A DNA stretch of 47,554 nt from Myxococcales bacterium 68-20 (GTDB lineage: Bacteria > Myxococcota_A > Polyangia > Polyangiales > Polyangiaceae), in NCBI GenBank assembly GCA_001899635.1, contig MKVQ01000003.1, forward strand, positions 191,243 to 238,796, in the 5' to 3' direction. The position numbers and the translations under genes were made by a program. Below the pieces are notes generated by a model. It saw only the letters and a program-made list of their open reading frames with translations, did not search any database and was not told the origin of the DNA. Within the stretch, counting starts at the first letter, position 1, and each line of letters begins with the position of its first letter. This document shows, piece after piece, positions 2,916-43,096 of the stretch.

Positions 2916-3278
<363 letters not shown>

Positions 3279-4413: not shown

Positions 4414-4732
4414 CCACGGAGGGTAACCCCGACCTCACCCGGAGGGAACGCTCCCCGCTCTGGTCTTCACCGCGAGATGGGCGGGTGCTTGCCGCTCATC
4501 TCCCCGAAGACGAGCAGCAGACGAACTAGCTGCTCTCCGACGGGACGAGGGCGCTCCTCCAGGGGGATTGCGGGCTCGGTCGGGGCGTTGGGATCAATGG
4601 GCTCGGCGGTCTGATCGTCTTGCATGCCCGAGCGTTCGGCCCGCGATGACGAGAGTTGCGTCCGAAGTTGTAGGTGCAGGTCGCCTCACCCCGCGGGGTG
4701 ATTGCAGCACCGGCCGCCTATCCCGGAGAGTT
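4414..4732. other. Intergenic region upstream of the nuclease-helicase pair
   Basis: About 320 bases between divergent genes. The upstream part of the open frame covering 4568-4732 is Arg-rich and lacks plausible protein character, so I treat it as non-coding. It should hold the promoter of the defence-like operon. No clear -35/-10 pair or operator could be picked out by eye. Confidence 0.4.
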
Positions 4733-4759
4733 GTGGCTTTATCACCCGTGGCACGCCAG

Positions 4760-5602
4760 ATGAACCTCCCCCAGACCATCAACGCCGAGATTCGTGATGC
4801 GATAGACATCCTCGCGAAGAACCTGCAGTGCGCTTCCGACGCGGCGGCGACACACGAGATCGTCCTGGTAACCGGCTGGTCTCAGGACGCTGCAACCATA
4901 AACGCCATCGGCGTCTATCTCGTGGGTCTCCTGACAAGCTCGATCGCCACGACACTGCAGGTCCGCTCGAGCATAGAGAGTACCGACGAGGATCGCCTTG
5001 AGATCTTGGAAAACGTCAAAGACCTGAGCGCTCGCAACAAGGTGGACGAACGCAATCCGTGGATCGCCGAGGGGCTCTGGCACCTGTGCCTCTTCCTCTC
5101 GAAACGCGTACGGAGCATTCATCCGACCGGCGCAGTGCTCGCACTCGAGCAACCTCACATCGGTGCAAAAGATCATGGCTTCGACGTCGTTGCACTATAC
5201 GAGACTAAGAACGGGGACGTCGGCGTCTCCGTCGTCGAATGCAAGGCCTACGAAAATGACCCCAACGGCGCGATCAATAGCGCCGTCGAGTTCTTCCGCG
5301 CGTTCGACCAAGGGAAATACCATCCCCGGATGCGGCAAGTCGTAGCACAGATGCGAGATCTGCTGCCCAAGGCCAAGCAGCCAATGGTCTCGCGCTCTCT
5401 TTGGAAGAAGCACCGCTGCTACGTCCCTAACCCGCACTATGACGCGAAGCACGCCATGGACTGGACTAACCACAGACGCTCTTTCAAAAACCTGTCCTTC
5501 CCTGTGGTCGTGATGCCACACGCAGTCCCGAAGTTCGACAAGTTCTTCGACAATGTAATGAAGGCAATGTTGAAGTTCGCTAAGGAGCTGCAAAGTGTTT
5601 GA
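4760..5602 (+). CDS. PD-(D/E)xK nuclease, HamA-like (DUF1837-type) defence effector
   Basis: A 280-residue protein from ATG 4760; GTG 4733, behind GGAG at 4725-4728, is an alternative start adding nine residues. The nuclease core is Asp142 (DHGFDVVALYE), then Glu160-x-Lys162 (VSVVECKAYENDP), followed by a helix with a conserved-looking run of Ala and Phe (GAINSAVEFFRAF). This G-x-D ... E-x-K plus helix arrangement matches what I know of HamA of Hachiman. The stop overlaps the start of the helicase gene, so both are coupled. Predicted role: a DNA nuclease controlled by the helicase partner. Assignment to Hachiman is by motif and context only. Confidence 0.65.
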   Translation: MNLPQTINAEIRDAIDILAKNLQCASDAAATHEIVLVTGWSQDAATINAIGVYLVGLLTSSIATTLQVRSSIESTDEDRLEILENVKDLSARNKVDERNPWIAEGLWHLCLFLSKRVRSIHPTGAVLALEQPHIGAKDHGFDVVALYETKNGDVGVSVVECKAYENDPNGAINSAVEFFRAFDQGKYHPRMRQVVAQMRDLLPKAKQPMVSRSLWKKHRCYVPNPHYDAKHAMDWTNHRRSFKNLSFPVVVMPHAVPKFDKFFDNVMKAMLKFAKELQSV

Positions 5603-8600
5603 CCAGCACGCCCAGGAGGTCATCAACGCCATCGCTGATCTGCCCGACCTCGACCCCGACACGTGCCGACGCCTTCTTTCACGTGCATACCTGCTAGTAG
5701 TGGAAGGACGCCTCAACGGTACGGGGCGGTCCGACGACCTCGACTCGACGGTGGACGCGCTCCGGCGGCTTGCCGACGCGCTGGAGAGTGTCGCCGTCTT
5801 TGACGCCGCGCATGGTATCCCTCGCACCGAACTGACACGGACCGCGAGCGCCTTCGTTGCCGGCGAAGCACTCTTCCTTCTAAGCAACCTGTATCCACAA
5901 TCCGAGGTGGAGACCCAATTCGACGACCCCCTCCAAGACCAGAGTTGCTACGCGGCCATCGAAGCTGGACTTCTCTACATGATCGGTGGCTACGACATCA
6001 ACGCGGTCACTGCTGTCGCGAATGTACCGCAGCCTCCGGCGACACCACTGGAAACACTCGAAGATCGCCGCAACCAATCCGCAAAAAGACTCCTACGACG
6101 ACTGGTCAACATCTGCCGCGGCACCGTCAACTACACAGAAGACGCACTTCCGTACGCCGGAGACATACAACCAACGCTCGCGCAAGACCTCCTAGACGAC
6201 ACACGCGCGCGAATCTATGACCTGCTCACGGATGCCGTAGACCACTTTGCAAACTGGCTGACTGGACACGGAAGTCTCGATACAAGTAGCAATATTATTC
6301 AGCGCGTCATCGACGCCACGCGCGCCGATATCGGCCTAAGCCTCTTCGGACTCGACGCAGCGTCTCCTGAAGGCGGCATTCCGCACGGAGCTTCTCAGTT
6401 CGCGGACATCTTCCACCTCGCACACCTTATGGCGGCTGCGTTCCGGGCCATGGGTGCTAGGTCGGTCGTACACTCCGTTCCACCGCCGGACAAGGGTGAC
6501 GCCGCTCTGATCGATGGCTTTCAGAAGTATATCCGTGCGCGCGCCGCAGGCGCCTCAAATAAGCCCGGTCGCCCGCTCCTCTGGCCAACCACAATCGAGT
6601 ACGTACGGGAGTGCCTGCCAGGGCCTCACAAGGACGCCGTCGTCTCGATGCCAACCGGCAGTGGAAAGAGCTTCCTCGCAGAGCTCGCTGTCGTGCATGC
6701 GTTGCCACGAGGCTGGGTCCTGTACTTGGCTCCTACGAATGCACTTGCGCAGCAGATCCGCCGAGACCTAGCGAATGCCCTGGCAATCTTTGGTGACGAC
6801 CTAAGAGTCTCGGCGTTCATTGGAGGAGCAGAGTACGCGGCACTTCACGAGGCGGAGATCACCGGAACTGCGCTCGTTGCAGTAATGACACCCGAAAAGT
6901 GCGCCCTCGCCCTGCGCCTTTACCCTCAAGCCTTTGCTCATTGCGCCCTGTGCGTATTTGATGAATGCCATCTCCTCAACGACGGAAATCGAGGAGCAAT
7001 CGCAGACGTTCTTCTGGCGCAACTATTCCACGTCGCACCCGACATGCGCACGCTGCTGATGTCGGCCATGGTTTCCAATCCCGACGACCTTGCATCCTGG
7101 CTAGCATCGGTGCGCGGACAGAAGGCACTCTCATCACGTATCAAGTGGCGACCATCACGAGCCGCCCGAGGCTTCATCTTCGTCGACAAGCTGGCCGCGA
7201 CCCGAGCAAAGGTGTCCGGACGCACCACTCTTGATTCAGGTCTGGCCAAAAAGCATACGGTTCAGGTGCCCCTGGCATGGCTCGTCGGCTTGTCCGGACC
7301 TTGGACACATGACGGCCCCGACGACTATCGCGTCGCCGCTCTACCGCTCTCAGCAGAATACGTTGCCCGTCAGAAGAAGGACGGCTCCCGAGAAGAAGGC
7401 TTCACAAGCTGGAAGAACTCAACCGGACAATCAGTTGCGGAGCTGTTTGCGTCCCATAAGATGCCGACAATCAACTTTGTCATGACGAGTCGACACCACG
7501 CCTTCAGCAACGCGAACGATGTCAACTCCGCGATACCAGACGCTGTCGGAATCAAAGGCTTACCGTCAATAGTAGTCGCCAAGCTTGCCCTCGCCGACGC
7601 AGAACTAGGTGTTGAGACCGCAATGCGCGACCTGCTTGCTCGCGGAATCGCAGTCCACACTGCCGCGATGCTACCGGTGGAGCAGTCCGCTTCGGAACAC
7701 ATGTTCGCTGAGGGGCATGCAAAACTGATGTTTGCGACCGGCACCCTAGCTCAAGGCCTGAACCTACCCGCGGCAGTAGTGGTAGTATCAGGGAGCAAGC
7801 TCCCGCAGCATGGCGCATCGGAGCTTGATGCCGGCGCCGGCCTCACTCGCGCAAAAGAGCTCATTCTAAATGGCTTCGGACGCGCGGGACGTCCCGGATT
7901 CGCCAACCAGGGAGTCGTTATCCTTGTAAGCGATAAGGAACTCCACGCCCCGGTCGCATCGAACACCAAGACAGGTCCTCTCGTACTTGCACAATACCCC
8001 GTCTTCGGCGAACCCGACGCGTCGGTGAGCGTGCGCAGTCCGATTGAGGACCTAATTGATCGACTTCTCGCCGGGGATCAGGCATCAGACGACCCCTCGG
8101 CGCTCCAGCTCGTTCTAACATCACTCCTGGCCGCCTTCGATGGGCCGGACGAGAACGCTGGAGCAGTGCTAAGAAGAACGTTTGCCGGCTACCAGCGCCG
8201 TGCTGAACTCACTCCTGAGCGCGCAGCCATTGTCAACGATCGCATTCATCTGTTGAAAGACCGGTTCCTGGAGCTGGAGGGCGTCCCCTCGTGGATGGCC
8301 AAGGTCGCCATGAAAGCCGGCGTCGACTTTCAGGTCGCCCATCGGATATGGCAGGCGTATCAGGACCGAGGCACGGTGACGCTCGAAGAGATGCATCGGC
8401 TCGACGTACGGGGTTGGTTCGAACTACTAATCAGCGTTCTCTCACGCCTCCCGCCGATGCGAATTGCGCCATACCTGGCGGATAATAAGACCCCAACGCC
8501 GAGAACGAAGCTGTTCGAGCTGGCGACCAGCACAATGCCTTCGCTCGAAGATACAGACACCATCCCTTGGTCACGACCGAGTGGATGGGAGGACACGTGG

Positions 8601-9125
8601 AACGAGCTTGGAGCGATCGTTTGGTCATTCATGAGTGGGGAGTCCTACGCGAAGCTCAACTCTCTGATCTTTGGAACACCGGTCGCGGATGTTGGCGGAG
8701 GACGCACCTATGCGGCCGAGGGCATCCCCGCCGTATTCAAATTTATCTCCGAAGTCATCGATCGCACCTTGAGCATGGATGCCGGGTGCTTCCTCGCGCT
8801 GCATGAGTGTTGGCTTGCGGAGGAACATCCGGAAGCGACGGTTCCGGAGGCTTTGCAAGGCCTACCACTGTGCATCCGCAATGGGTGCAGCTCGCTCGAT
8901 GTCCTTGCGTGGTATCGTTCTGGCTTCAGACAACGTGTCTCGGCGCATGCACTCGCCGAGGCCTTTCCAATTCCGCCGTTCATCGACAACGACGCAGATA
9001 GAGCGACCTTCGTGCGGAAGGCTCGCCGCGCGTGGCTAAATGACAGGCCGGTGGACGGCGAGCCGCTGGGGCTCCTGGACTATGCTCGCGTCGTTCGCCT
9101 CGACGATTCGTCAGAGCGCAATTAG
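5595..9125 (+). CDS. SF2 (Ski2-like) DNA helicase, HamB-like defence protein
   Basis: An 1176-residue protein from GTG 5595 with AAGGAG at 5582-5587. Helicase motifs: I MPTGSGKS at 352-359, II DECH at 456-459, III SAM at 490-492, the Ski2-type TGTLAQGLNLPA at about 715-726, and VI GFGRAGR at 760-766. About 350 residues precede motif I and 400 follow motif VI with no fold I can name. The start lies within the nuclease gene. The gene uses more A/T-rich codons (CTA, ATA, AGT) than the virion genes beside it, suggesting separate transfer. It is longer than HamB proteins I know of, so it may be a variant or related system. Confidence 0.72.
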   Translation: MFDQHAQEVINAIADLPDLDPDTCRRLLSRAYLLVVEGRLNGTGRSDDLDSTVDALRRLADALESVAVFDAAHGIPRTELTRTASAFVAGEALFLLSNLYPQSEVETQFDDPLQDQSCYAAIEAGLLYMIGGYDINAVTAVANVPQPPATPLETLEDRRNQSAKRLLRRLVNICRGTVNYTEDALPYAGDIQPTLAQDLLDDTRARIYDLLTDAVDHFANWLTGHGSLDTSSNIIQRVIDATRADIGLSLFGLDAASPEGGIPHGASQFADIFHLAHLMAAAFRAMGARSVVHSVPPPDKGDAALIDGFQKYIRARAAGASNKPGRPLLWPTTIEYVRECLPGPHKDAVVSMPTGSGKSFLAELAVVHALPRGWVLYLAPTNALAQQIRRDLANALAIFGDDLRVSAFIGGAEYAALHEAEITGTALVAVMTPEKCALALRLYPQAFAHCALCVFDECHLLNDGNRGAIADVLLAQLFHVAPDMRTLLMSAMVSNPDDLASWLASVRGQKALSSRIKWRPSRAARGFIFVDKLAATRAKVSGRTTLDSGLAKKHTVQVPLAWLVGLSGPWTHDGPDDYRVAALPLSAEYVARQKKDGSREEGFTSWKNSTGQSVAELFASHKMPTINFVMTSRHHAFSNANDVNSAIPDAVGIKGLPSIVVAKLALADAELGVETAMRDLLARGIAVHTAAMLPVEQSASEHMFAEGHAKLMFATGTLAQGLNLPAAVVVVSGSKLPQHGASELDAGAGLTRAKELILNGFGRAGRPGFANQGVVILVSDKELHAPVASNTKTGPLVLAQYPVFGEPDASVSVRSPIEDLIDRLLAGDQASDDPSALQLVLTSLLAAFDGPDENAGAVLRRTFAGYQRRAELTPERAAIVNDRIHLLKDRFLELEGVPSWMAKVAMKAGVDFQVAHRIWQAYQDRGTVTLEEMHRLDVRGWFELLISVLSRLPPMRIAPYLADNKTPTPRTKLFELATSTMPSLEDTDTIPWSRPSGWEDTWNELGAIVWSFMSGESYAKLNSLIFGTPVADVGGGRTYAAEGIPAVFKFISEVIDRTLSMDAGCFLALHECWLAEEHPEATVPEALQGLPLCIRNGCSSLDVLAWYRSGFRQRVSAHALAEAFPIPPFIDNDADRATFVRKARRAWLNDRPVDGEPLGLLDYARVVRLDDSSERN

Positions 9126-9143
9126 CATTGCTAATTGCGCTCT
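9113..9143. terminator. 14-bp perfect hairpin between convergent genes
   Basis: AGAGCGCAATTAGC (9113-9126) and GCTAATTGCGCTCT (9130-9143) pair perfectly across a 3-base loop. The helicase stop codon TAG (9123-9125) lies in the stem. It separates convergent genes and probably acts as a bidirectional terminator, though no long T-tract follows on either strand. Confidence 0.6.
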
Positions 9144-9154
9144 CCCGAGCGAGC

Positions 9155-9577
9155 CTACTTCTTCTTCTTTCCCGCCGTGTAGACCGTCGCGCGCTTGTTG
9201 CCGCTCTTCTTGAGGACGCCGCTCTTGAGGCCCTCAGCGATCGGCTTCGGCATCTCCCGTTTGTCGAGGTTCAAGGCCGCCTTGATCTGCTCCGCTCGGA
9301 GCCCGTCAGCGTGCTTGGCCACAAGCGCGACGATGCTCTCCAACGTCTGCGCGATGTCGTCGGGGGAACGGCGGCCGAGCCGTCCGGCCTTCTTCGTGGC
9401 CTTCGGAGCGGCTTCGGTCGTCTTGGCGCCGCGGGGAGCGCGAGAGGGGGCAGCGGCGGCAAGACCGCCCGTGACGCTCGCGAGTTCGTCGAGGCTGGCG
9501 CTCCGAAGCGCATCAATGAGGGCAACGGCGAACTTCTGGGCGTGGGCTTCGATGGTCTGACGGAGGGCGGTGGACAT
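9155..9577 (-). CDS. DNA-binding protein, winged-helix type C-terminus
   Basis: A 140-residue protein from ATG 9577 (MSTALRQTIEAHAQ), preceded by GAGGGG. The middle is Ala/Lys/Pro-rich and basic (AAPKATKKAGRLGRRSPDD). The C-terminus (IAQTLESIVALVAKHADGLR, then AEQIKAALNLDKREMPKPIA, then a strand and KKKK) looks like a winged helix, as in basic DNA-binding proteins I recall from myxobacteria. It is the last gene of the late strand, after the holin. It could be a late regulator or a chromatin-like protein. Its distance from the holin (67 bases) leaves room for its own promoter. Confidence 0.6.
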   Translation of the reverse strand: MSTALRQTIEAHAQKFAVALIDALRSASLDELASVTGGLAAAAPSRAPRGAKTTEAAPKATKKAGRLGRRSPDDIAQTLESIVALVAKHADGLRAEQIKAALNLDKREMPKPIAEGLKSGVLKKSGNKRATVYTAGKKKK

Positions 9578-9644
9578 GCGCCCCTCGTACCCTCGAAAGC
9601 GTGTAGTAGACAACCACTATTGACAGGCTGCCGCCGAAGGCTCG

Positions 9645-10043
9645 TCACTCGCCCCGGTCTTCCTTCTCTCGCTGCGGCGGCCGGAGCTTCTCGATCACGA
9701 GCTTCCTGAAGTCCATTCCAGAGATGCGCGTGAGGTTCTCGTAGATCGAGAGCAGCTCGGTGGAGCCGACGAAGCCAGCGACGACCTTCGTGATCGGAAC
9801 CAGGTCCTCGAAGACGTACAGCTCGGCAACGTGCGCGACGAAGATCGCGGTCAGATAGACCAAGCTCTTCGTGACGGTGCGCCCGAACCTATCGGACGTG
9901 ACCCGCTGGCCGGCCTTGACCGAGGCCCAGACCCCGGTGATCACGTCGATGACGACGAGGAAGCCGAGAGCCAGCGCGGTCGCCTGAATGGGAGCGAAGA
10001 GCCCCAGGGCGAACATGACGAATGGGCCGATGTGCTGCTTCAT
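9645..10043 (-). CDS. Phage holin (holin 4 family type)
   Basis: A 132-residue membrane protein from ATG 10043 (MKQHIGPFVMFALGLF). Hydrophobic segments: about 7-35, including IQATALALGFLVVIDVITGVWA; 58-78 (SLVYLTAIFVAHVAELYVF); and a weaker one near 85-100. The DxxTG motif after the first segment and the SxELLSIxENL motif near the end match the toxin-secretion/phage-lysis holin family. It makes the membrane lesion in lysis. Its ATG overlaps the TGA of the fibre gene (ATGA). No endolysin lies next to it, which is unusual for a lysis cassette. Confidence 0.8.
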   Translation of the reverse strand: MKQHIGPFVMFALGLFAPIQATALALGFLVVIDVITGVWASVKAGQRVTSDRFGRTVTKSLVYLTAIFVAHVAELYVFEDLVPITKVVAGFVGSTELLSIYENLTRISGMDFRKLVIEKLRPPQREKEDRGE

Positions 10044-29525: not shown

Positions 29526-30112
29526 CTGACACCCCGCTGTTGGTGCCGCCCAACGCCATGCTTCAAGAGGGGGTCTCGTCCTATGCGCGAGGAGCGAAGC
29601 CTCGTCCTGGGATCTCCCCAGGCACCATGCAGCGGCGGGCGGCATTCAACGCCGGCTCATAGGAGGGCGAAGGCGCGTCAGACGGGTGACCGGGTCTGAC
29701 CAGCAGCGGAGTAGTTCTCTACGCCGGGGCAGGGGATCGAGCCGAACACTGAACTAGTGGATGCACCCGTTCAGCGAAATTTTGTCCTCAGGCGCTGTAC
29801 CTAAGTGCCAGTTCGGAAACGGATTTTGTCTCCCCCCATACCCGAACATCCGGGTATTTCCCCAGGGTTCCCCTCACCTTTTCCACTACTTTTGCACGCC
29901 GTATCCGCCCGTAATCACTGCGAATAAGCGCGCCCAAAGAAATCGACCGTCCCCCCTTTCTTCAAATCACGAACCGGAGTAGGGCTAAGTGAAGAGCACG
30001 GCCGTGGCCTCAGCGGTCGCACTGCTGCACAAAGAGGCAGGGCTGGAAGCGCGCCAACGCGTCCAGCCCTTTGGAGAACCCGAACCCCCTTCCAAGAGGA
30101 ACGAGTCATCGC
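29526..30112. promoter_or_regulatory. Divergent regulatory region between late and accessory genes
   Basis: About 590 bases between divergent transcripts with no convincing gene. It is more A/T-rich than the surroundings from 29760 to 29960. A hairpin ATACCCG (29838-29844) / CGGGTAT (29851-29857) with six loop bases is followed by TTT on the plus strand and may be an attenuator. The late promoter should lie at its left end; I could not identify boxes. Confidence 0.4.
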
Positions 30113-30994
30113 ATGGGCGAACCTATCACAACGAATCCCGAAAACATCCCGAACGAACACCGCGTCCTCAACGCCTGGAACACGAAGGAGATTTTGGTCC
30201 TCGGGATGACCTACCCGGCGTACTCGAACAAGTACACGGAGCTGGTCTGCACCGGCGCAATCGAGGAGGACACGAAGCGCCTCATCAGGATCCACCCGAT
30301 GCCGAAGCGCTACCTCGACGAAGGTCAGGGCTTCAAGAACTTCCAGAGGATCGAGGCGCGCGTCCAACGCAACCGCCACGATCCTCGTCCCGAGAGCATC
30401 CGCGTCGACTTCCCGAGCGTTCGCCCGCTGGACGAGATCCCCGCGAAGACCCCGGAGGCGCGACGTGCGTACCTCGAGCAATCGCCGAGCCTCGTTAGGT
30501 CGGTCGAGGAGCTCCAAGGTCTCAACGCGCGCTTCGGGATGTCGCTCGGCATCGTCGTCCCGAAGTCCATCGACGTGAAGATCCGCAAGCGCACACCGAG
30601 CGAGCGCGCCGAGTGGTACGCGACCGAGCGGAAGTTCATGAGCCAGAAGACCCTCGAGTTGGTCCGGCCTCCGAAGAAGATCGACTTCCCGGAAGCCGAG
30701 TTCCTCGTCACGTGGACGTGCAACGATCCTCGCTGCACGAAGGGCCACACGTCGGGCCTCAGGTCCTGGTCGATCCACGAAGGCTACCGGAAGCTGAAGA
30801 GAGACCCGGCGCGCGACAAGAAGATGCTCGAGACGATGGAGCGCGAGTTCGACCTGACGAAGCGCGACGTCTTCCTCTTCCTCGGCACCTTCCACAACCA
30901 CCAGACCACCTTCGGTTTGATGGACGCCTACCGTCCGAAGAAGCGGATCGTCGAAGCGCCGTCTCCCCAGCTCGGACTGTTCGCGCGGTCATGA
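30113..30994 (+). CDS. Conserved protein of unknown function with CxxxxCxxxH zinc site
   Basis: A 293-residue protein from ATG 30113 (AGAGGAACGAG upstream). The first part (EILVLGMTYPAYSNKYTELV, CTGAIEEDTKRLIRIHPMPK, RVQRNRHDPRPESIRVD) belongs to a widespread uncharacterised family whose members start 'LVKTYP..S.KY.E.VCTAG' and have 'DPRPES'. A zinc site Cys203-x4-Cys208-x3-His212 precedes a Trp/helix block (GLRSWSIHEGYRKL). Such genes are often found near mobile and defence genes, from memory. No activity is known to me. It opens the plus-strand accessory segment of the prophage. Confidence 0.62.
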   Translation: MGEPITTNPENIPNEHRVLNAWNTKEILVLGMTYPAYSNKYTELVCTGAIEEDTKRLIRIHPMPKRYLDEGQGFKNFQRIEARVQRNRHDPRPESIRVDFPSVRPLDEIPAKTPEARRAYLEQSPSLVRSVEELQGLNARFGMSLGIVVPKSIDVKIRKRTPSERAEWYATERKFMSQKTLELVRPPKKIDFPEAEFLVTWTCNDPRCTKGHTSGLRSWSIHEGYRKLKRDPARDKKMLETMEREFDLTKRDVFLFLGTFHNHQTTFGLMDAYRPKKRIVEAPSPQLGLFARS

Positions 30995-33547: not shown

Positions 33548-33747
33548 CGGTCGTGGATCTCGTCGACGGTGCACTCGAGGTCCTCGCAGTCGTCGCTCGG
33601 GATCCCGTGCTTGCACGACCGCGTGAGGATGATCTCCCGGATGACCGGGCAGTATCGGGGGAGGCTCTGCTGCGCGGCCGCCAGATCCCGCCACGCAGCC
33701 ACCGCACCAGGACTCGGCATCCAGAGCGGGCTATCCCGGAGGGTCAT
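33544..33747 (-). CDS. Small hypothetical protein (67 aa)
   Basis: From ATG 33747 (MTLRDSPLWMPSPGAVAAWR). The C-terminal part carries paired cysteines and a His (TRSCKHGIPSDDCEDLECTV), possibly a metal site. It is coupled to its neighbours by ATGA overlaps. Confidence 0.5.
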   Translation of the reverse strand: MTLRDSPLWMPSPGAVAAWRDLAAAQQSLPRYCPVIREIILTRSCKHGIPSDDCEDLECTVDEIHDR

Positions 33748-34115
33748 TTGGAGGCCTCCTGGTACGCGCGTATCGACTCGGTGAGCTGGCCGGCAGTCGC
33801 GAGAGCCGCGCGGAGAGCCCCATTGGCGAGGCTGAACCGGTTCTGAAGGACGGCGAGCTTCTCGGCCGGGTCCTCGGGCAGCGGCTGGTCGAGCATCGCC
33901 TCGAGACTGGCGAGGAGCTGGGGCCATAGGTCGAGATGACGGCGGAGGGCCTCCGCGACGATCGCGCTCCTCGCCTCCCCGGTCTGGTCCGCTCGGGCCT
34001 GGAGGGCATCAGCGACGTCCTGAGGGAGCGACACCTCCATCGTCGGACGCCCTCTTGACCGCCGAGATTCCCTTCCCCAACCAGCCGCCGGTTGACGCCT
34101 ATTATCTCCGCTCAT
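33744..34115 (-). CDS. Ribbon-helix-helix-like regulator
   Basis: A 123-residue protein; ATG 34115 overlaps the stop of the first gene in the operon, and ATG 34040 (MEVSLPQDVADALQARADQT) is an internal alternative. The segment MEVSLPQDVADALQARADQT, GEARSAIVAEALRRHLD is a ribbon-helix-helix fold, as in CopG/MetJ-type DNA-binding proteins. The C-terminal helix region would be the partner or tetramer surface. It may control the operon. Confidence 0.58.
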   Translation of the reverse strand: MSGDNRRQPAAGWGRESRRSRGRPTMEVSLPQDVADALQARADQTGEARSAIVAEALRRHLDLWPQLLASLEAMLDQPLPEDPAEKLAVLQNRFSLANGALRAALATAGQLTESIRAYQEASK

Positions 34116-34309
34116 CGGCCCATCTCCTCGCGAGCCTGAGCGGCGAGATCCTCGTAGCAAGCATCGCAGAGCCAGAAGTCCTCCTGGCAATCTTCAGTTA
34201 CCTCGAGAAAGGGGTCCCTGCGGAGGACACACGGTCGCGTTTCATTGCAGGAGTCGCAGAGGCAGGTCTCGGTGCGGCGATTCCCGGGAGCGCTGTTGGC
34301 GTTCGTCAT
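34112..34309 (-). CDS. Small zinc-finger-like protein
   Basis: A 65-residue protein starting MTNANSAPGNRRTETCLCDS. Cysteine pairs CLCDSC and CDAC near residues 16-21 and 48-51 (WLCDACYEDL) make a likely zinc ribbon. It is the first gene of the five-gene minus-strand operon and faces the inverted-repeat region. Similar small zinc proteins are common in phage early operons. Confidence 0.55.
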   Translation of the reverse strand: MTNANSAPGNRRTETCLCDSCNETRPCVLRRDPFLEVTEDCQEDFWLCDACYEDLAAQAREEMGR

Positions 34310-34708
34310 ACTTCAAATTAAAACCCACTGTTGCCCGGACAACAATTATCCACGACGTATTGTCACGTTCGCGAGTGCCGAGAGCACGCTCCGGATCACC
34401 ATGAGGGATGGTGCTCAACCTGATGGCCCTGTGTTTCTCCACGCTCCAACCACCTTGTTCACCCCTCCGTTCCTCTCTCACGTCCGTAAACCACCTTGTT
34501 TGTCTTAGATCTCGTTCTCGGATCTCGCTCTGAGCCCCCAAGAGAAAGAGATAAACAAGGTGGTTTACGGACGTGATGAGAGAACGGAAGGAGAACTCTG
34601 AGGGCTCTGAAGGGGATCTCGACCAGGGGAAGGGCTCTGAGGCGCCAGGGAAAGGCACGCGAAGGGCACGGCACTCGTAGACCTTTTATTGCCTTGTAGA
34701 GTGTTGCC
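34310..34708. promoter_or_regulatory. Divergent control region with iteron-like repeats
   Basis: About 400 bases between the five-gene minus operon and the plus-strand RHH gene. It holds three copies of AACCACCTTGTT and a 24-bp perfect inverted repeat (see separate entry) and an A/T-rich patch near 34680-34700 before the RHH gene. It may be the phage's main regulatory switch or replication origin. Confidence 0.5.
34478..34576. repeat. 24-bp perfect inverted repeat with iteron copies
   Basis: Arms at 34478-34501 and 34553-34576 are exact inverse complements (TCACGTCCGTAAACCACC...), with imperfect pairing extending outward for about eleven more bases and a 51-base loop. AACCACCTTGTT occurs at 34448-34459, 34489-34500 and inverted at 34554-34565. 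The internal loop also carries AGATC...GATCT. Such spaced direct and inverted copies suit a repressor operator or a replication initiator site. Confidence 0.7.
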
Positions 34709-34909
34709 ATGAAGCAAAGCAAATCTAAGTCGATGGTCATGGGCGTTACCCTCGACAAGTCATTTGTAGAGCGGATCGACGCACTCATCGCCCCTATGAG
34801 CTCCAGGCTCTTCGGTGTCGGGCTGGACCGATCGAAGATTGTCAGGATGCTCCTTGAACGATCCATCAAGGACGTCGAGACGGAACTCGGCCTCCAGACC
34901 AACCACTGA
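34709..34909 (+). CDS. Ribbon-helix-helix DNA-binding protein (Arc/CopG type)
   Basis: A 66-residue protein. VMGVTLDKSFVERIDALIAP supplies the strand and first helix; GLDRSKIVRMLLERSIKDVE supplies the second helix. This fits RHH regulators of phages and plasmids. It lies 130 bases downstream of the 24-bp inverted repeat and so may bind it. It is followed by a short acidic gene. Confidence 0.68.
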   Translation: MKQSKSKSMVMGVTLDKSFVERIDALIAPMSSRLFGVGLDRSKIVRMLLERSIKDVETELGLQTNH

Positions 34910-34967
34910 CCACAAACAAGTTTCGACCCCGCACGGATTGCCGTCCGCCGGGGCCTTGGAGAACTCA

Positions 34968-35126
34968 ATGCTCAACGGTAAGAGTACATCAAAGCCCGCT
35001 CATTTGCAGATCGTCCGATACTGGCTCCCCCGGGAGACCTCCGAGGACGAAGTGTTCACGTCAGATGACTCCGTGGACGAGGTCTTCGACGACGACCTTT
35101 ATCTCGACGAGCTGGAGGCCCTGTGA
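34968..35126 (+). CDS. Small acidic protein (52 aa)
   Basis: From ATG 34968 with GGAG seven bases upstream (MLNGKSTSKPAHLQIVRYWL). The second half is very acidic (DEVFTSDDSVDEVFDDDLYL). Its stop overlaps the next gene's GTG (GTGA). Such DNA-mimic-like acidity is often seen in phage inhibitors of host nucleic-acid-binding proteins, but that is inference. Confidence 0.5.
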   Translation: MLNGKSTSKPAHLQIVRYWLPRETSEDEVFTSDDSVDEVFDDDLYLDELEAL

Positions 35127-36004
35127 GGTTCCGCTCGCTCGAACACGACGCCGCCTGCCTCACCTTCGGCTTCGACGACGACGAGCCGAACGATGCAGAG
35201 CTGGATTATGACGAAAGCTCAGCTGGGATGGGCTCGATAGATGGGTATTTCTCCGCCGCCACCACCGATAGCGAAGACGAAGACGAAGACGACACCGACG
35301 ATGACCGTGAGGAGCCGGCTCCGAGCGTCATCGACTTCCGACCATCCCCGGAGTGCAGCTACTCACCGCGCGCTCGGATGATCGTGGAGCGGCTGAGGGA
35401 GCACGCGTCGACGATGCTCAACGTCTACCGCGGGGCGATCTCGGACGCCTTCTGGCTCGACAGGCCAATTATCCCTGGGTTGGGATTCGACCGGCAGACG
35501 CCGCCCATTCAGCGCATCGCATACCTCAACGTACTGAGCGCGGAGGACCATGCGTACCTCCTGGGCGAGATCGCGCACTACGAGGCGCATCTCTTCCCGC
35601 TCCTCGAAAGCGCGACCGGAGAGGAAGGACGCGACTTCTTCGTCGAGATGGGCCATCACGCTAGGGATTACCAGCTGCTCCTCGCGACGGCTGCCCTGCT
35701 CGGCGAGCCGCTCCGGACCGGGCACTCGTGGGAGATCCCCTTCCGCAGGTGGGACGCGTCACCGGCGCGTCGCGCCTATTACCGGGCACGCGACGTCATG
35801 CGGAAGGCCGACCCTCTCGAGCGGGAGGCAGCCCGAACGCGCGACGCCAAGCGTAGGAAGAGCAAGTCGAGGCAGGAGTATCAGGCGGCCTATCAGGCCA
35901 CCTACCAGGCCGCGTACCGGACGACGCCCGAGGCCAAGTCGCGCGACGCGGCCCGTAAGCGCGCCGCCAGAGCAGCGAAGAAGGCCGCTTCCGCGGCAGC
36001 CTAG
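35123..36004 (+). CDS. Hypothetical phage early protein with acidic linker and Tyr repeats
   Basis: A 293-residue protein from GTG 35123. Residues 10-70 are acidic (FDDDEPNDAELDYDESSAG; DSEDEDEDDTDDDREE). The middle domain is helical (MIVERLREHASTMLNVYRGA; LSAEDHAYLLGEIAHYEAHL). The basic C-terminus has YQAAYQATYQAAY repeats and Arg/Lys-Ala blocks (ARKRAARAAKKAASAAA). I recognise no family. It probably binds nucleic acid through the tail. Confidence 0.5.
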   Translation: MRFRSLEHDAACLTFGFDDDEPNDAELDYDESSAGMGSIDGYFSAATTDSEDEDEDDTDDDREEPAPSVIDFRPSPECSYSPRARMIVERLREHASTMLNVYRGAISDAFWLDRPIIPGLGFDRQTPPIQRIAYLNVLSAEDHAYLLGEIAHYEAHLFPLLESATGEEGRDFFVEMGHHARDYQLLLATAALLGEPLRTGHSWEIPFRRWDASPARRAYYRARDVMRKADPLEREAARTRDAKRRKSKSRQEYQAAYQATYQAAYRTTPEAKSRDAARKRAARAAKKAASAAA

Positions 36005-36507: not shown

Positions 36508-37113
36508 TCACAGCTTGATGCCGAGCTTCCGGAGACTGTTCGCGAAGCCGCGTGGCGAGTGGGCGTTCGTCAGGCCCATCGAGTACGCGGCATCGCGAAC
36601 GTGTTCGAGCCAGTCGCCTTCCTTGCGGAGCCCCTCACGCACCCTGTCGCTCCCGTCGCGATGGAGGCTCGGCTTCTTCGGCGGCGCGTTGCCGTTCATC
36701 CTCCGGCGGAGCATCTCGCGTGTCGCAGGTGTGATGGCGAAGGCGACCTTGGCGCGGCGGTAGACGGCGCGCACGAGCAGCGGCCACTCGCGCGACGACA
36801 GAGGGACGTCGATACCCGCATCGGCGAGTTCGCTCGCGAGGACGGCTTCGAGCGTCGTCATCCCGCCTTCGCCTGGTGTGCCGCTCACGTCTCGCGGCTC
36901 CTGCCAGATCGTGACCTCACGCACGCCGAAGAACTCCCCGCGGTCCTGCTCCTTGCGCTCGTCGACGAGGTGTTTGGCCGCCCGCATGACGGCGGTGACG
37001 AGCGACGCGAGCTGTGCGGTCTGAGGTGAGGGGTTTGTCACGGCCGAAGGACGCAATCTCTGACCATCGGACGGCGGCACTGAGCCGGCGCCGACAGGAG
37101 AACGCGTCATCAT
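36508..37113 (-). CDS. Hypothetical protein, divergent from the next gene
   Basis: A 201-residue protein from ATG 37113 (or 37110). It contains SLVTAVMRAAKHLVDERKEQ, a central TTLEAVLASELADAGIDVPL, and RGFANSLRKLGIKL at the C-terminus, which looks like a winged-helix or primase-like tail. Its start codon overlaps that of the opposite-strand gene at 37112, so both starts fall within the same few bases. If the true start is further inside (for example GTG near 37040), the overlap vanishes. Confidence 0.5.
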   Translation of the reverse strand: MMTRSPVGAGSVPPSDGQRLRPSAVTNPSPQTAQLASLVTAVMRAAKHLVDERKEQDRGEFFGVREVTIWQEPRDVSGTPGEGGMTTLEAVLASELADAGIDVPLSSREWPLLVRAVYRRAKVAFAITPATREMLRRRMNGNAPPKKPSLHRDGSDRVREGLRKEGDWLEHVRDAAYSMGLTNAHSPRGFANSLRKLGIKL

Positions 37114-37777
37114 GCCCGATACTCTCAACCAGGCCAACGGGGCCATCCCCGACAGCATCACGCCGGTCGCCAAGGCCGACGACTCCATCGTCATCCCCGC
37201 GCTTCCCGAGATCAACCTCGGGGAGCTCGCGATGCCCTCGAACGTTGCCGAGGCCACGGAGAAGGCCGAACTCAGCGTCATGCTCGGTATGCCCGGAAAG
37301 ATGTTCTTCCGGACTCGTCCGGGCTACGTGCTCGGCACGCCCGCCAACCCCATCATCGTCGTCAAGCTCAACGACGAGATTGCTGCGATGCTGGGGCTCC
37401 GCAACGAGAAGTACCGCGTCGTCCACCCATCAATCGTCCCGCACCTCGATCGGGCCGACTATCAGCGCGTCGTGCTCCATGCGGCCGTAACCATCCCCGG
37501 GGCTCTCCATCTGATCCCCGTGCGGGTGGACGGCGACGATGGGTGGGCCACCTCCGCCCGCAGCGCCGTCGCACAGGCGCAGGTCGGCTGGCTCCGCCTC
37601 GTCGCGCGCAAGCAGGGCCAGGGATACGAGATCCGTCACGGCAGCGACGAGAATCCTCCGGCGCCCGCGTGGCCCGCGAACGTGTCGTTCGACACGATCG
37701 TGAAGCTCGCGCTGAAGGACCGCATGATCACGGACCTGAACCACCCCGTGGTCCGCGGACTGCAAGGCCGCTGGTGA
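37112..37777 (+). CDS. Hypothetical protein upstream of the DNA polymerase genes
   Basis: A 221-residue protein from ATG 37112 with AGGAGA at 37096-37101. The sequence is mixed alpha/beta (NPIIVVKLNDEIAAMLGLRN; ADYQRVVLHAAVTIPGALHL) and ends FDTIVKLALKDRMITDLNHP. It is directly followed by the exonuclease gene (3 bases), so it is likely part of the replication operon. Possible roles: polymerase accessory or single-strand DNA handling. No known motif was seen. Confidence 0.5.
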   Translation: MPDTLNQANGAIPDSITPVAKADDSIVIPALPEINLGELAMPSNVAEATEKAELSVMLGMPGKMFFRTRPGYVLGTPANPIIVVKLNDEIAAMLGLRNEKYRVVHPSIVPHLDRADYQRVVLHAAVTIPGALHLIPVRVDGDDGWATSARSAVAQAQVGWLRLVARKQGQGYEIRHGSDENPPAPAWPANVSFDTIVKLALKDRMITDLNHPVVRGLQGRW

Positions 37778-37780
37778 TGC

Positions 37781-38314
37781 GTGAGGCGGCTCACCGCCCT
37801 CACCGAGATATGGTGCGTCGACTTCGAGTATCACGCGCCCGGCGGTGAGCCGCCTCGCCCTATCTGCGTCTGCGGCGTTGAGTTCTGGAGCCGGAGGCAA
37901 CTGCGCCTCTGGCTCTGGGACGGCGCTCCCGCAGAGCCCCCCTTCGACATCACGTCGACGACCGCCCTCTGCGCCTACGCGGCACAGGCGGAGGCGAGCT
38001 GCTTCTTCGAACTCGGGTGGCAGCTGCCGCCCTACGTCATCGACGCGTTCGCCGAGTTTCGCGTCCACACCAACGGGCTCAGGCTGCCCGGCACAAACGG
38101 ACTGCTCGACGCGATTGAACACTACGGGATTCCGCACCCGACCAACCAAGAGCGGAAGGACCAAATGAGAGACCTCTGCATCAAGGGCGGTCCGTTCTCG
38201 GAGGAGCAGGCGAAGGAAATCATGGACTACTGCATGGAGGACGCCGTGGGGCTCGCCAATCTGCTCGCGGCCCTGGAGGCCGACGTGAAGCGCGGATCCA
38301 ATGCTCGACCTTGA
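37781..38314 (+). CDS. 3'-5' exonuclease (DEDDy type), stand-alone proofreading subunit
   Basis: A 177-residue protein from GTG 37781. Exo I: Asp14-x-Glu16 (WCVDFEY). Exo III: Tyr150-x3-Asp154 (DYCMEDAVGL). The Exo II region AYAAQAEASCFF has Glu71 where Asp is usual. The fold and length suit the exonuclease domain of family A polymerases. It overlaps the polymerase gene by 14 bases in a different frame, suggesting a polymerase split into two coupled genes. Confidence 0.68.
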   Translation: MRRLTALTEIWCVDFEYHAPGGEPPRPICVCGVEFWSRRQLRLWLWDGAPAEPPFDITSTTALCAYAAQAEASCFFELGWQLPPYVIDAFAEFRVHTNGLRLPGTNGLLDAIEHYGIPHPTNQERKDQMRDLCIKGGPFSEEQAKEIMDYCMEDAVGLANLLAALEADVKRGSNARP

Positions 38315-39545
38315 TCGCGCTCTGCTCCGCGGGACGTACGCCGTGTGTGTCGCGATGATGGCCCGCATTGGCGTGCCCATCGACATGGTCCTGCTCGGCA
38401 TGCTCATGGCACGCTGGCAAGACCTCCGCGAACGGATCGCCGCGCGTGCCGCGTTCCGGTACCCCGGCGTGTTCGAGGGTACGACGCTCGTCGAAGAGGG
38501 CTTCCGTCAGTTGATCGATCGGCGAGGGTACTGGTGGCCGACGTTGCCCGACGGCGGGCTGAAACTCGACGGTGAGACGTTCGACGAGATGATCGACTTC
38601 TACCCGGAGTTCCGCTTCCTACGCGATACGCGCTGGATGCTCCGCCAGACCGCAAAGCTCAAGATCGTCGACTACATTGGCGTGGACGGACGCAATCACG
38701 TCGCTTCGGCCCCCTTTTCAGCAAAGACCGGGCGCGATGGGCACTCGACGTCGAAGTCCGTGCTCGCTGCACCCACGTTTCTCCGCTCGATAATCCAGGC
38801 TCGTCCCGGGTTCGCACTGCTGTACGCCGACTTCAAGGCAGAGGAGTACGCGCTCATGGCGCGGCTGTCGAAGTGCCCCGGAATGCTCGCCGCGTACGAC
38901 CTGGCCAAGCGCGGGCTGGGTGACGTCTACTTCGAGTTCGCCAAGGCAGCCCGGGCCGTCCTTCCCGATGCACTGCGCAAGGATCACGAGGAGATCCGCG
39001 AAATCTACAAGACGGTGGTCCTCGCCGTTGCGTACGGCCAGGGTGCGCTGTCGCTGGGGCGCCGCCTGAAGACCCCGAGCGACTACGCGCAACGGATCCT
39101 CGACCAATTCAACACCGCATACCCCGAATGTCGAGACTTCGGCAATCGCGTCTATGTGACCTCGCAGATGCGAGGTCGGATGCGCGCCGAACTCGGTTGG
39201 AAGATGTGGGTAACGCCGCTCACCAACGAGGAGCTGTCCATCAAGAACTGGCCGATCCAAGCCTGTGCGGCCGAGATCCTGAAGGTTGCCGTTGTCCTTG
39301 CGTTCCGCCGTGGCATTCGCCTGTGCGGCGCGCTTCACGACGCGGTGCTCGTCGAATGCAGGGAGCAGGACGTGGACTCGACGACCAAACAGATCACCGC
39401 CGTGATGCAGGAGGCAAGCGCCAACGTGCTGGGAGGCTTCGAGCTCGCCGTCGACGTCAAGGCGTTCGCCCACCCCGACCACTTCCACGACAAGCGTGGC
39501 GTCGACACCTGGAACGAGATCCGTGAGGCCCTGGGATGGACGTGA
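38301..39545 (+). CDS. DNA polymerase, family A (polymerase domain only)
   Basis: A 414-residue protein. Motif A: Asp177 in LLYADFKAEEYALMA. Motif B: Arg233-x3-Lys237-x7-Tyr245-Gly246, which reproduces the Pol I spacing (R754, K758, Y766). Motif C: His346-Asp347-Ala348 (ALHDAVLVE), with Ala instead of the usual Glu. It lacks the exonuclease and 5' nuclease domains. It should replicate the phage genome in partnership with the exonuclease encoded upstream. The end overlaps the next gene. Confidence 0.88.
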   Translation: MLDLDRALLRGTYAVCVAMMARIGVPIDMVLLGMLMARWQDLRERIAARAAFRYPGVFEGTTLVEEGFRQLIDRRGYWWPTLPDGGLKLDGETFDEMIDFYPEFRFLRDTRWMLRQTAKLKIVDYIGVDGRNHVASAPFSAKTGRDGHSTSKSVLAAPTFLRSIIQARPGFALLYADFKAEEYALMARLSKCPGMLAAYDLAKRGLGDVYFEFAKAARAVLPDALRKDHEEIREIYKTVVLAVAYGQGALSLGRRLKTPSDYAQRILDQFNTAYPECRDFGNRVYVTSQMRGRMRAELGWKMWVTPLTNEELSIKNWPIQACAAEILKVAVVLAFRRGIRLCGALHDAVLVECREQDVDSTTKQITAVMQEASANVLGGFELAVDVKAFAHPDHFHDKRGVDTWNEIREALGWT

Positions 39546-41407: not shown

Positions 41408-41749
41408 ATGGATACCAAAGTCAGACACCTAAGAGCGCTTCCGGACCTGTCCGGAGCGCAGTTCGTTGGCGTGGACGTGCCGATCCCGGAGTCGCTCCGC
41501 GCGAAGGCCCTCGGTCTGGCGGAAATGCCATCGCCATCCTCGCTGTCCAAGCCGCAGCCGTTCATGCTCTCCGCGAAGGAGGCCGCGGCACTCCTCGGCT
41601 GCAGCTTGTCCGCGTTCTACCAGAGGGTGGAGCGGCGACAGGTGGCCGGCGTCGTCTATGTCGGCTCGAAGATCACGGTGAACCGAGCCAAGCTCATGGC
41701 CTCGCTCGAGAAGGAGGGCCGGCGGTGCCGTTCACGCTCTGGCCGTTGA
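41408..41749 (+). CDS. Excisionase-like HTH protein
   Basis: A 113-residue protein. The helix-turn-helix SAKEAAALLGCSLSAFYQRV, then ERRQVAGVVYVGSKITVNRA fits the AlpA/HTH_17 excisionase family (recombination directionality factor). It overlaps the integrase start, with the integrase ribosome binding site GGAGGG in its end. Its likely role is to promote excision or control int. Confidence 0.68.
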   Translation: MDTKVRHLRALPDLSGAQFVGVDVPIPESLRAKALGLAEMPSPSSLSKPQPFMLSAKEAAALLGCSLSAFYQRVERRQVAGVVYVGSKITVNRAKLMASLEKEGRRCRSRSGR

Positions 41750-42924
41750 TCGAGAAGGGCGAGCGCGTCCCCGACACGTGGATGGCGCGCTTCAAGCTGT
41801 ACCGCCCTGACGGGACGGTGTGGCCCGCCGGCAAGAACGACAAGGGCTCCCGCAAGCGCATCAAGGCGAAGACCGAACCCAAGGCGCGCGAGGAGGCGGC
41901 GAAGTATGAGGCGCACCTGATTGCGAAGTTCGGAACGGAGTACCGGGAGAAGGAGACCCGCGAGCGCGAGGCGGCGGAGCGGGTGAAGGCAAAGGTCCCT
42001 CTGTTCGGTGACTGGACGAAGTCCTGGCTGCGGTACATCAAGCCGGACACGAAGCCGTCCTCGTACGACAGCATCGTCTCCATCCTCGACATCCACCTTC
42101 TGCCGTTCCTCCGCAGTGTCCGCCTCGACCTCATCACGAACCGTGAGATCGCTGAGCTGCGCGTGAAGTTCCACGAGGGCGGCTACCCGGACACGAAGGG
42201 GAAGCCGGTCAAACCGACGAGCAGCCAGAAGACGATCAACAACCGGCTTAGCACACTCCGGAGCTCCCTCGCGCACGCCGTCAAGGTCGGTGACCTATCC
42301 GCCATGCCGTGCAACATAGAGATTCCGCCGGTCGAACCGGACGAGGCAGCCTTCTACACTCCGGACGTCTACGGGAAGCTCTGTGAGGCGGCCCTTGGAA
42401 TCGGGCTGATCGAGTACAATGCAGTCCTCCTTGCCGGCAACCAGGGCATGCGGAGGAACGAGTGCATCTCGCTCCGCTGGTCGGACATCGACTTCGACAA
42501 GAGCGAGGTCGTGATCCGCCGGTCCGTCTACGTGAAGAAGGGCGAGCGGCTGGAATCGACGCCGAAGGGCGGGAAGATCAAACGCCTGCCCGCATCGAAG
42601 CGCCTAATGGCTGCGCTCAAGAAGCTCCACGCGCAGCGGAGGGGCGACCACGTGCTGACGAGGGAGGGCGGCAGTCCGTGGACGCCCAAGGTCTTCCGCC
42701 GCACGATCGAGAAGATCGAGAAGGCCGCCGGGCTCGAGGTGACGGGACGGATCCACGTCCTAAGGCACAGCTTCTGCTCGTCGCTTGCCGCCAAGGGCGT
42801 CGCCCCCATCGTCATCCAGGCGCTGGCTCGACACGCGAACATCAGAACCACAGAGCGCTACACGCACCTACAACCAGGTGCGCTCCGAGAGGGTATCGAC
42901 GCGCTCAGCCGGGAGGGCGAGTGA
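41725..42924 (+). CDS. Tyrosine-family integrase
   Basis: A 399-residue protein from GTG 41725 behind GGAGGG. Catalytic residues: Arg243 (GMRRNECISLRW), His344-x-x-Arg347 (HVLRH), His370 (ARHANIRTTE), Tyr379 (RYTHL). An N-terminal SAM-like core-binding domain spans about 85-190. It integrates the phage at the ssrA 3' end, whose duplicate lies 150 bases downstream. Orientation and distance are as expected for int next to attP. Confidence 0.92.
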   Translation: MPFTLWPLIEKGERVPDTWMARFKLYRPDGTVWPAGKNDKGSRKRIKAKTEPKAREEAAKYEAHLIAKFGTEYREKETREREAAERVKAKVPLFGDWTKSWLRYIKPDTKPSSYDSIVSILDIHLLPFLRSVRLDLITNREIAELRVKFHEGGYPDTKGKPVKPTSSQKTINNRLSTLRSSLAHAVKVGDLSAMPCNIEIPPVEPDEAAFYTPDVYGKLCEAALGIGLIEYNAVLLAGNQGMRRNECISLRWSDIDFDKSEVVIRRSVYVKKGERLESTPKGGKIKRLPASKRLMAALKKLHAQRRGDHVLTREGGSPWTPKVFRRTIEKIEKAAGLEVTGRIHVLRHSFCSSLAAKGVAPIVIQALARHANIRTTERYTHLQPGALREGIDALSREGE

Positions 42925-43073: not shown

Positions 43074-43096
43074 GTTCGATTCCCGGCGCCTCCACC
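43074..43096 (+). repeat. attR core
   Basis: The second copy of the 23-bp ssrA 3' end. Upstream sequence is unlike tmRNA, so only a fragment of the gene remains here. Downstream sequence is the original host sequence behind ssrA. Confidence 0.9.

Follow-up and report, generated by a model that had tools for sequence, protein, structure and literature searches.

Genomic Context of the Inverted Repeat

The window, i.e., the whole stretch of 47,554 nucleotides analysed here, contains a prophage of 39.8 kb (positions 3256–43096), and a long inverted repeat lies within a 399-bp non-coding gap of this prophage. The integration site is the tmRNA gene of the host, a probable soil myxobacterium, presumably of the Polyangiales, with a genome of 11.9 Mb. 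The tmRNA gene occupies positions 2916–3278, and its terminal 23 bp recur at 43074–43096. Since this att repeat is found together with an integrase gene and with genes for a head protease, major head protein, tail sheath, tape measure, and large terminase, we regard the element as a myophage-type prophage. Its large terminase is no more than 31% identical to any match among the 20 phage records listed, and by this comparison the prophage appears to be far from sequenced phages. The genes on either side of the gap and the ends of the prophage are as follows.

3256–3278, plus strand: attL, the 3′ end of the tmRNA gene
33744–34109, minus strand: gene of an RHH_1 (CopG-type) protein in the leftward operon (PF01402, E 8.8e-5)
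34112–34309, minus strand: Cys-rich ORF of 65 aa without a family match, with which the leftward operon begins
34709–34909, plus strand: gene of a 66-aa RHH-like protein, first gene rightwards (predicted beta-alpha-alpha layout, no profile confirmation)
35123–36004, plus strand: gene of a 293-aa protein, the next larger one rightwards, a candidate initiator from its position only
37112–37777, plus strand: conserved module protein with no assigned function, aligned with four relatives at 23–30% identity
37781–38314, plus strand: N-terminal part of the phage polymerase, called exonuclease-like from its position and by reading, without a family match
38301–39545, plus strand: family A DNA polymerase
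41725–42924, plus strand: integrase
43074–43096, plus strand: attR, the 23-bp copy of attL

The leftward operon itself encodes a ribbon-helix-helix (RHH) protein with profile support (33744–34109; 22.8 bits with a PF01402 cut-off of 20.5), unlike the 66-aa protein on the other side of the gap. The latter had been taken for an RHH protein in a sequence-only reading of this DNA and matches no Pfam or NCBIfam family. Its single-sequence structure model consists of a short strand and two helices (pLDDT 77, pTM 0.49); Foldseek returned nothing at E ≤ 0.001 with this model, and CopG (1ea4) came at rank 4 with E 4.8. One homologue weakly matches RHH_1, below the cut-off, and the homologues read like RHH proteins. 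By predicted layout and homologues, the 66-aa protein is probably RHH-like. Matches to designed repeat proteins in the PDB profile search were taken as artefacts.

Rightwards, the 66-aa protein is followed by proteins without an assigned family, the protein at 37112–37777, the exonuclease-like part, the family A polymerase, further genes, an HTH protein (sub-threshold), and the integrase. The 293-aa protein matched no family, and its structure model was too poor for searching; no initiator gene was recognised beside the repeat. It should be noted that the exonuclease-like and polymerase parts are two overlapping ORFs in the window and one fused ORF in relatives.

Elsewhere in the prophage, a lower-GC cargo region adjoins attL (4568–9709) and includes a 1176-aa DEAD-box helicase matching the Hachiman HamB and PDC-M23B defence models, and a 307-aa protein (30071–30994) matches the candidate defence family PDC-M19B (E 4.7e-29) and phrog_25907.

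The Inverted Repeat and Its 12-bp Motif

The non-coding gap and its borders carry the following features.

34300–34349: low-GC 50-bp stretch (40%)
34448–34459, plus strand: third (extra, direct) copy of AACCACCTTGTT, iteron-like, by exact-match count and shuffle test
34463–34505, plus strand: left arm extended to 43 nt, with 84% complementarity to the extended right arm
34478–34501, plus strand: left arm of the 24-bp perfect inverted repeat, by perfect-repeat scan
34510–34527, plus strand: spacer motif matching the spacer of a relative's repeat at 17 of 18 positions (score reached in 0 of 300 shuffles)
34540–34589: low-GC 50-bp stretch (42%)
34549–34591, minus strand: extended right arm, 43 nt
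34553–34576, minus strand: right arm of the 24-bp perfect inverted repeat, by perfect-repeat scan
34678–34727, no strand: joint lowest-GC 50-bp stretch of the prophage (38%), overlapping the gap

The sequence-only reading had described perfect arms at these positions and a short motif present twice directly and once inverted, and both descriptions are correct: the 24-nt arms are perfect reverse complements, 51 nt apart, and AACCACCTTGTT occurs exactly three times in the window, at 34448 (plus), 34489 (plus), and 34554 (minus), always at the inverted repeat. From base composition, 2.5e-7 perfect repeats of the 24-bp kind would be expected in the window with gaps of up to 200; the repeat is the longest perfect inverted repeat found there, the next being of 16 nt. 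No flank shuffle out of 100 gave as much as the extra copy of AACCACCTTGTT outside the arms. The 12-bp motif has partial internal symmetry, as judged by eye. The heptamer GATCTCG is mildly over-represented (32 versus 21.6; 2 of 100 shuffles).

When the 50-bp stretches of the prophage are ranked by GC content, three of the lowest 12 fall in or overlap the gap, at 38–42% GC only; this AT-richness also fits promoters. A simple scan, which is weak evidence, gave no sigma-70-like promoter in 34200–35000. By eye, a promoter-like pair TTGTTG-17-TTTAAT, unflagged by that scan, is seen at 34310–34345 (minus strand) just before the first leftward gene and would give a leaderless transcript of it.

Weak DNA matches to other genomes cluster at about 34363–34406 of the window (E 0.004–0.09), 36 of 183 genomes having some match at E 0.1, and were judged to be composition noise. 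A blastn search with the repeat region against phage and plasmid records gave no match, and our literature searches found no description of such an inverted-repeat element.

Insertion sequences and terminators often contain inverted repeats, and the repeat might be a mobile-element remnant, a terminator, or another passive feature. We consider this the least likely of the explanations. The repeat is single-copy in its own genome, where the second search match is the repeat against its own complement, and among the 182 other genomes searched no copy was found, only short marginal matches (best E 0.0045); a dispersed repeat, MITE, or insertion sequence was rejected because of this. An intrinsic terminator was rejected because there is no T-run, the loop is large, and the terminator scan flagged only 34367–34351 (minus strand), not the repeat. 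The counterpart in a relative described in the next section also speaks against a passive feature.

Repeats beside the Replication Module in Relatives

The replication module, comprising the 37112 family, the exonuclease-like part, the family A polymerase, the HTH protein, and the integrase, is common in part or whole to relatives. With the genome of the window counted each time, searches detected members of the 37112 family in 6 of 183 and in 11 of 317 genomes, and the exonuclease-polymerase in 12 of 377 at E 1e-40. A profile of the latter also found 22 viral-contig loci, seven of them at E < 1e-100; the polymerase as a single query had given no match in viral contigs.

Perfect repeats were scanned for in 20 elements, with a minimum of 15 bp in the window, G005, G070, G153, G132, G055 (contig 403), G196, G316, and G209, and of 14 bp in L064, L269, L270, L271, L273, L274, L275, and the elements in G352, G464, G430, and G364 (L291–L294). 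The flanks available before the module ranged from none (L292) or very short (L273, G209) to more than 8 kb and were annotated gene by gene in part. A perfect repeat with a long spacer just before the module was seen in two of the 20 elements, the window and G153, and in none of the other 18 module copies, L273, L292, and G209 having little or no flank.

In G153, perfect arms of 18 bp are separated by a 41-nt spacer at the same place before the module. The arms of the two repeats are unrelated in sequence, and the first module genes of the window and G153 have no BLASTP similarity; the spacers share the motif listed above, in opposite orientations relative to the module. Other stretches resembling this motif numbered 8 in viral contigs and at least 116 in genomes; none of the 124 other stretches among the matches listed lies inside a perfect repeat longer than 12 bp, and we read the matches elsewhere as chance. 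A third copy of the arm in G153 is not significant, 87 of 100 shuffles being as good.

Other elements have repeats of other kinds. In G005, the only repeat before the module is imperfect (20 nt, 80%, 24-nt spacer), and in L271, an 18-bp repeat with a 60-nt spacer lies about 4 kb beyond the polymerase. Short-loop hairpins stand between the first module genes in G132 (18 bp, 9-nt loop), G070 (16 bp, 5-nt loop), and G055 (14 nt, 93%, 9-nt loop). The 3′ arm of the perfect G132 hairpin (L054, 2214–2258) holds, by eye, an RBS-like sequence of the next, HTH-like gene, and the hairpin is possibly a translation switch.

In G196, the place before the module holds five same-strand copies of GACACCC within 213 bp, behind which lies a T-rich tract (L075, 5326–5548); five copies anywhere in the 9.2-kb contig were reached in 1 of 200 shuffles. 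This iteron-like array is likely an origin.

Repeats in Other Prophages with Related Terminases

The large terminase has homologues at E 1e-20 in 24 of 309 genomes (own genome counted), and 20 stretches upstream of such homologues were fetched, several shortened by contig ends. Four of these stretches (G108, G037, G067, and G312) contain perfect repeats of 18 bp or more whose spacers measure 20 nt or more, and four others contain repeats of 16–17 bp. The G312 repeat lies directly behind a Prim-Pol/D5 gene, that of G108 behind a UvrD-type helicase gene, and that of G037 within a GC-rich open frame with no assigned role. Extra arm copies went beyond shuffles in G108 and G067 (0 of 100 each) and not in G312 (35 of 100) or G037 (65 of 100). 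The repeats of G108 and G312 stand directly before terminase genes (in G108, the small subunit, by eye) and are possible packaging or late-promoter sites. All four are analogies to the repeat of the window, not homologues.

In G067 (L129, 14890–15030), one inverted and several direct repeats of about 20 bp lie inside the 3′ end of a 1089-aa gene with AAA and HTH matches, both sub-threshold; they resemble a lambda-O-type origin.

The Repeat and the RHH-like Gene

The sequence-only reading had offered two roles for the repeat, a lysogeny switch connected with the adjacent RHH gene or a replication origin. A first search gave homologues of the 66-aa protein in 2 of 58 genomes, and a two-sequence profile gave them in 28 of 183, both counts including the genome of the window; neither viral contigs nor phage records gave a match. 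Upstream regions were scanned with strand respected, over up to 700 nt and in most cases 700 nt, at the 29 loci returned for the 33 profile matches listed outside the window. None of the 29 had a perfect repeat of at least 13 bp with a spacer above 20 nt, and therefore the repeat does not travel with the gene at 34709–34909. One homologue (L042) is preceded by a 16-bp repeat with an 11-nt loop. Since the profile search also found no RHH homologue on the repeat-bearing G153 contig, the comparison gives the switch and its link to the RHH gene no support. It points weakly to the repeat going with the replication module rather than with the RHH gene.

An operator of a divergent early switch nevertheless deserves consideration. 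A phage repressor, either of the proteins encoded at 33744–34109 and 34709–34909 or another, would bind three 12-bp pseudo-palindromic sites and silence the leftward and/or rightward early promoters in the lysogen. The repeat of the window does lie between divergent genes (perhaps that of G153 as well, its far-side genes being uncertain), an RHH gene and an RHH-like gene flank it, AACCACCTTGTT is partly symmetrical, and no CI-type repressor was recognised among the portion of the prophage ORFs that was scanned. Against these points stand the results for the RHH homologues and the promoter scan, and 12-bp sites alone leave arms of 24–43 nt unexplained. On balance, we find such an operator rather improbable.

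A Hairpin at the Start of the Polymerase Gene

Next in length to the inverted repeat of the gap, among the perfect repeats of the window, is a hairpin that begins two bases into the exonuclease-like gene.

37783–37798 / 37841–37856, plus strand: perfect 16-bp hairpin

The first 120 nt of 14 homologues in the right frame were compared with recodings in which the protein sequence was fixed and synonymous codons were redrawn. The z-scores of 5′ structure were negative in all 14, and at the 1% level seven were more structured than expected: the window, G005, G055, G316, and L275 (0/500 each), G132 (4/1000), and G153 (2/500, and 8/1000 on repeating). The remaining values lay above this level (G196, 55/500; G070, 18/500; G209, 426/1000; L269, 40/500; L270, 28/500; L271, 10/500; L273, 42/500). 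Later 120-nt stretches were usual in six of the seven significant genes, with 0 of 53 below z −2.0.

A stem in fixed register pairs the start-codon region with the codons just after a conserved D-F/T-E motif across a spacer of 42–46 nt; the spacer of G005 is 24 nt because its inner pairs are included in the stem. It exceeded all 500 recodings in four of the 14 homologues (the window, G005, G153, and L275), whose arm sequences are unrelated, and was not found in the other 10. This covariation-type evidence suggests that, in part of the family, the polymerase gene begins with a stem that functions as RNA (or as single-strand DNA), possibly a new phage RNA element or operator.

The inverted repeat of the gap could likewise act as RNA: its long arms, if transcribed, would form a hairpin controlling the replication operon, as a leader RNA, an antisense RNA, or an RNase III site. 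The folding energy of the repeat region is far below that of shuffles on both strands (z −10.2 and −8.9), which is what any long inverted repeat gives. Stems that differ between the window and G153 around a kept spacer motif form a pattern typical of RNA, and the polymerase-start hairpin provides the module with another conserved hairpin. Against these arguments stand the opposite strands of the spacer motif relative to the module, awkward for a shared leader, and the Rfam search: no family other than that of tmRNA was above its gathering score, so that a known RNA family was rejected for the repeat, and two microRNA-precursor models far below theirs (best E 0.0057) are expected of any long hairpin. 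We regard control by such an RNA as unlikely. A more specific proposal, in which a class of fast-diverging hairpins with variable stem and kept loop controls the module in phages and integrative elements of this class of bacteria, acting as RNA together with the covarying polymerase-start hairpin, both perhaps recognised by the phage polymerase, has only a slim chance of being correct.

Discussion

What the repeats compared here, those of other prophages included, have in common is a place beside replication-type genes and not beside an RHH gene. The repeat of the window also contains a repeated site and lies in an AT-richer gap, and for these reasons we favour, tentatively and at somewhat less than an even chance, a cis-acting iteron-type site for initiation or control of the phage replication module, formed by the repeat together with the third copy of AACCACCTTGTT and perhaps serving as the phage origin. 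Iteron origins are recognised by three or more copies of one short site, and AACCACCTTGTT is present in three. They would also have an AT-rich unwinding region and an initiator gene nearby, for which the stretches of 38–42% GC and the gene at 35123–36004 are candidates by position. Upon induction, a phage DNA-binding protein would bind these copies and bend or open the adjacent AT-richer DNA; replication, or transcription of the replication operon, would then start. We infer the binding, the binder, and the origin activity from what was directly observed, namely the repeat in single copy, its position, the local AT-richness, and the analogous repeat at the same place in one relative. Of the two roles first proposed, the comparison thus lends moderate support to the origin or replication-control one, through the position before the module, the third copy, the low-GC stretches, the G153 repeat, and the G196 array.

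Our literature searches showed little on how phages of these myxobacteria control their replication. Should the repeat prove to be an origin or operator, it would offer a compact control site and might yield an autonomously replicating vector for these hosts, which are difficult to manipulate.

Arc and Mnt of phage P22 are small RHH repressors with operators in the phage control region. The window is similar in having small RHH proteins in such a region; it differs in that its RHH proteins are putative binders and that the repeat does not travel with the RHH homologues.

Lambda is described as carrying four iterons within the O gene, each an imperfect inverted repeat of 19 bp, and lambdoid iterons as being themselves inverted repeats and giving the strongest hairpins of that gene (PMC7466680). 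As in this account of ori-lambda, several copies of a short site stand in the window beside replication genes and AT-richer DNA. Unlike in ori-lambda, two of the copies are arms of one 24-bp repeat 51 nt apart and one is a separate 12-bp copy, and all lie outside any recognised initiator gene.

For the polymerase-start hairpin, the nearest described case found in the literature is the translational operator of T4/RB69 gene 43, an RNA hairpin about 40 bases upstream of the start codon in T4 (PMC3014915). Both hairpins belong to a phage DNA polymerase gene and are located where its translation starts. Unlike that of T4, the stem of the window lies within the coding sequence, beginning at codon 1, and the polymerase is of family A.
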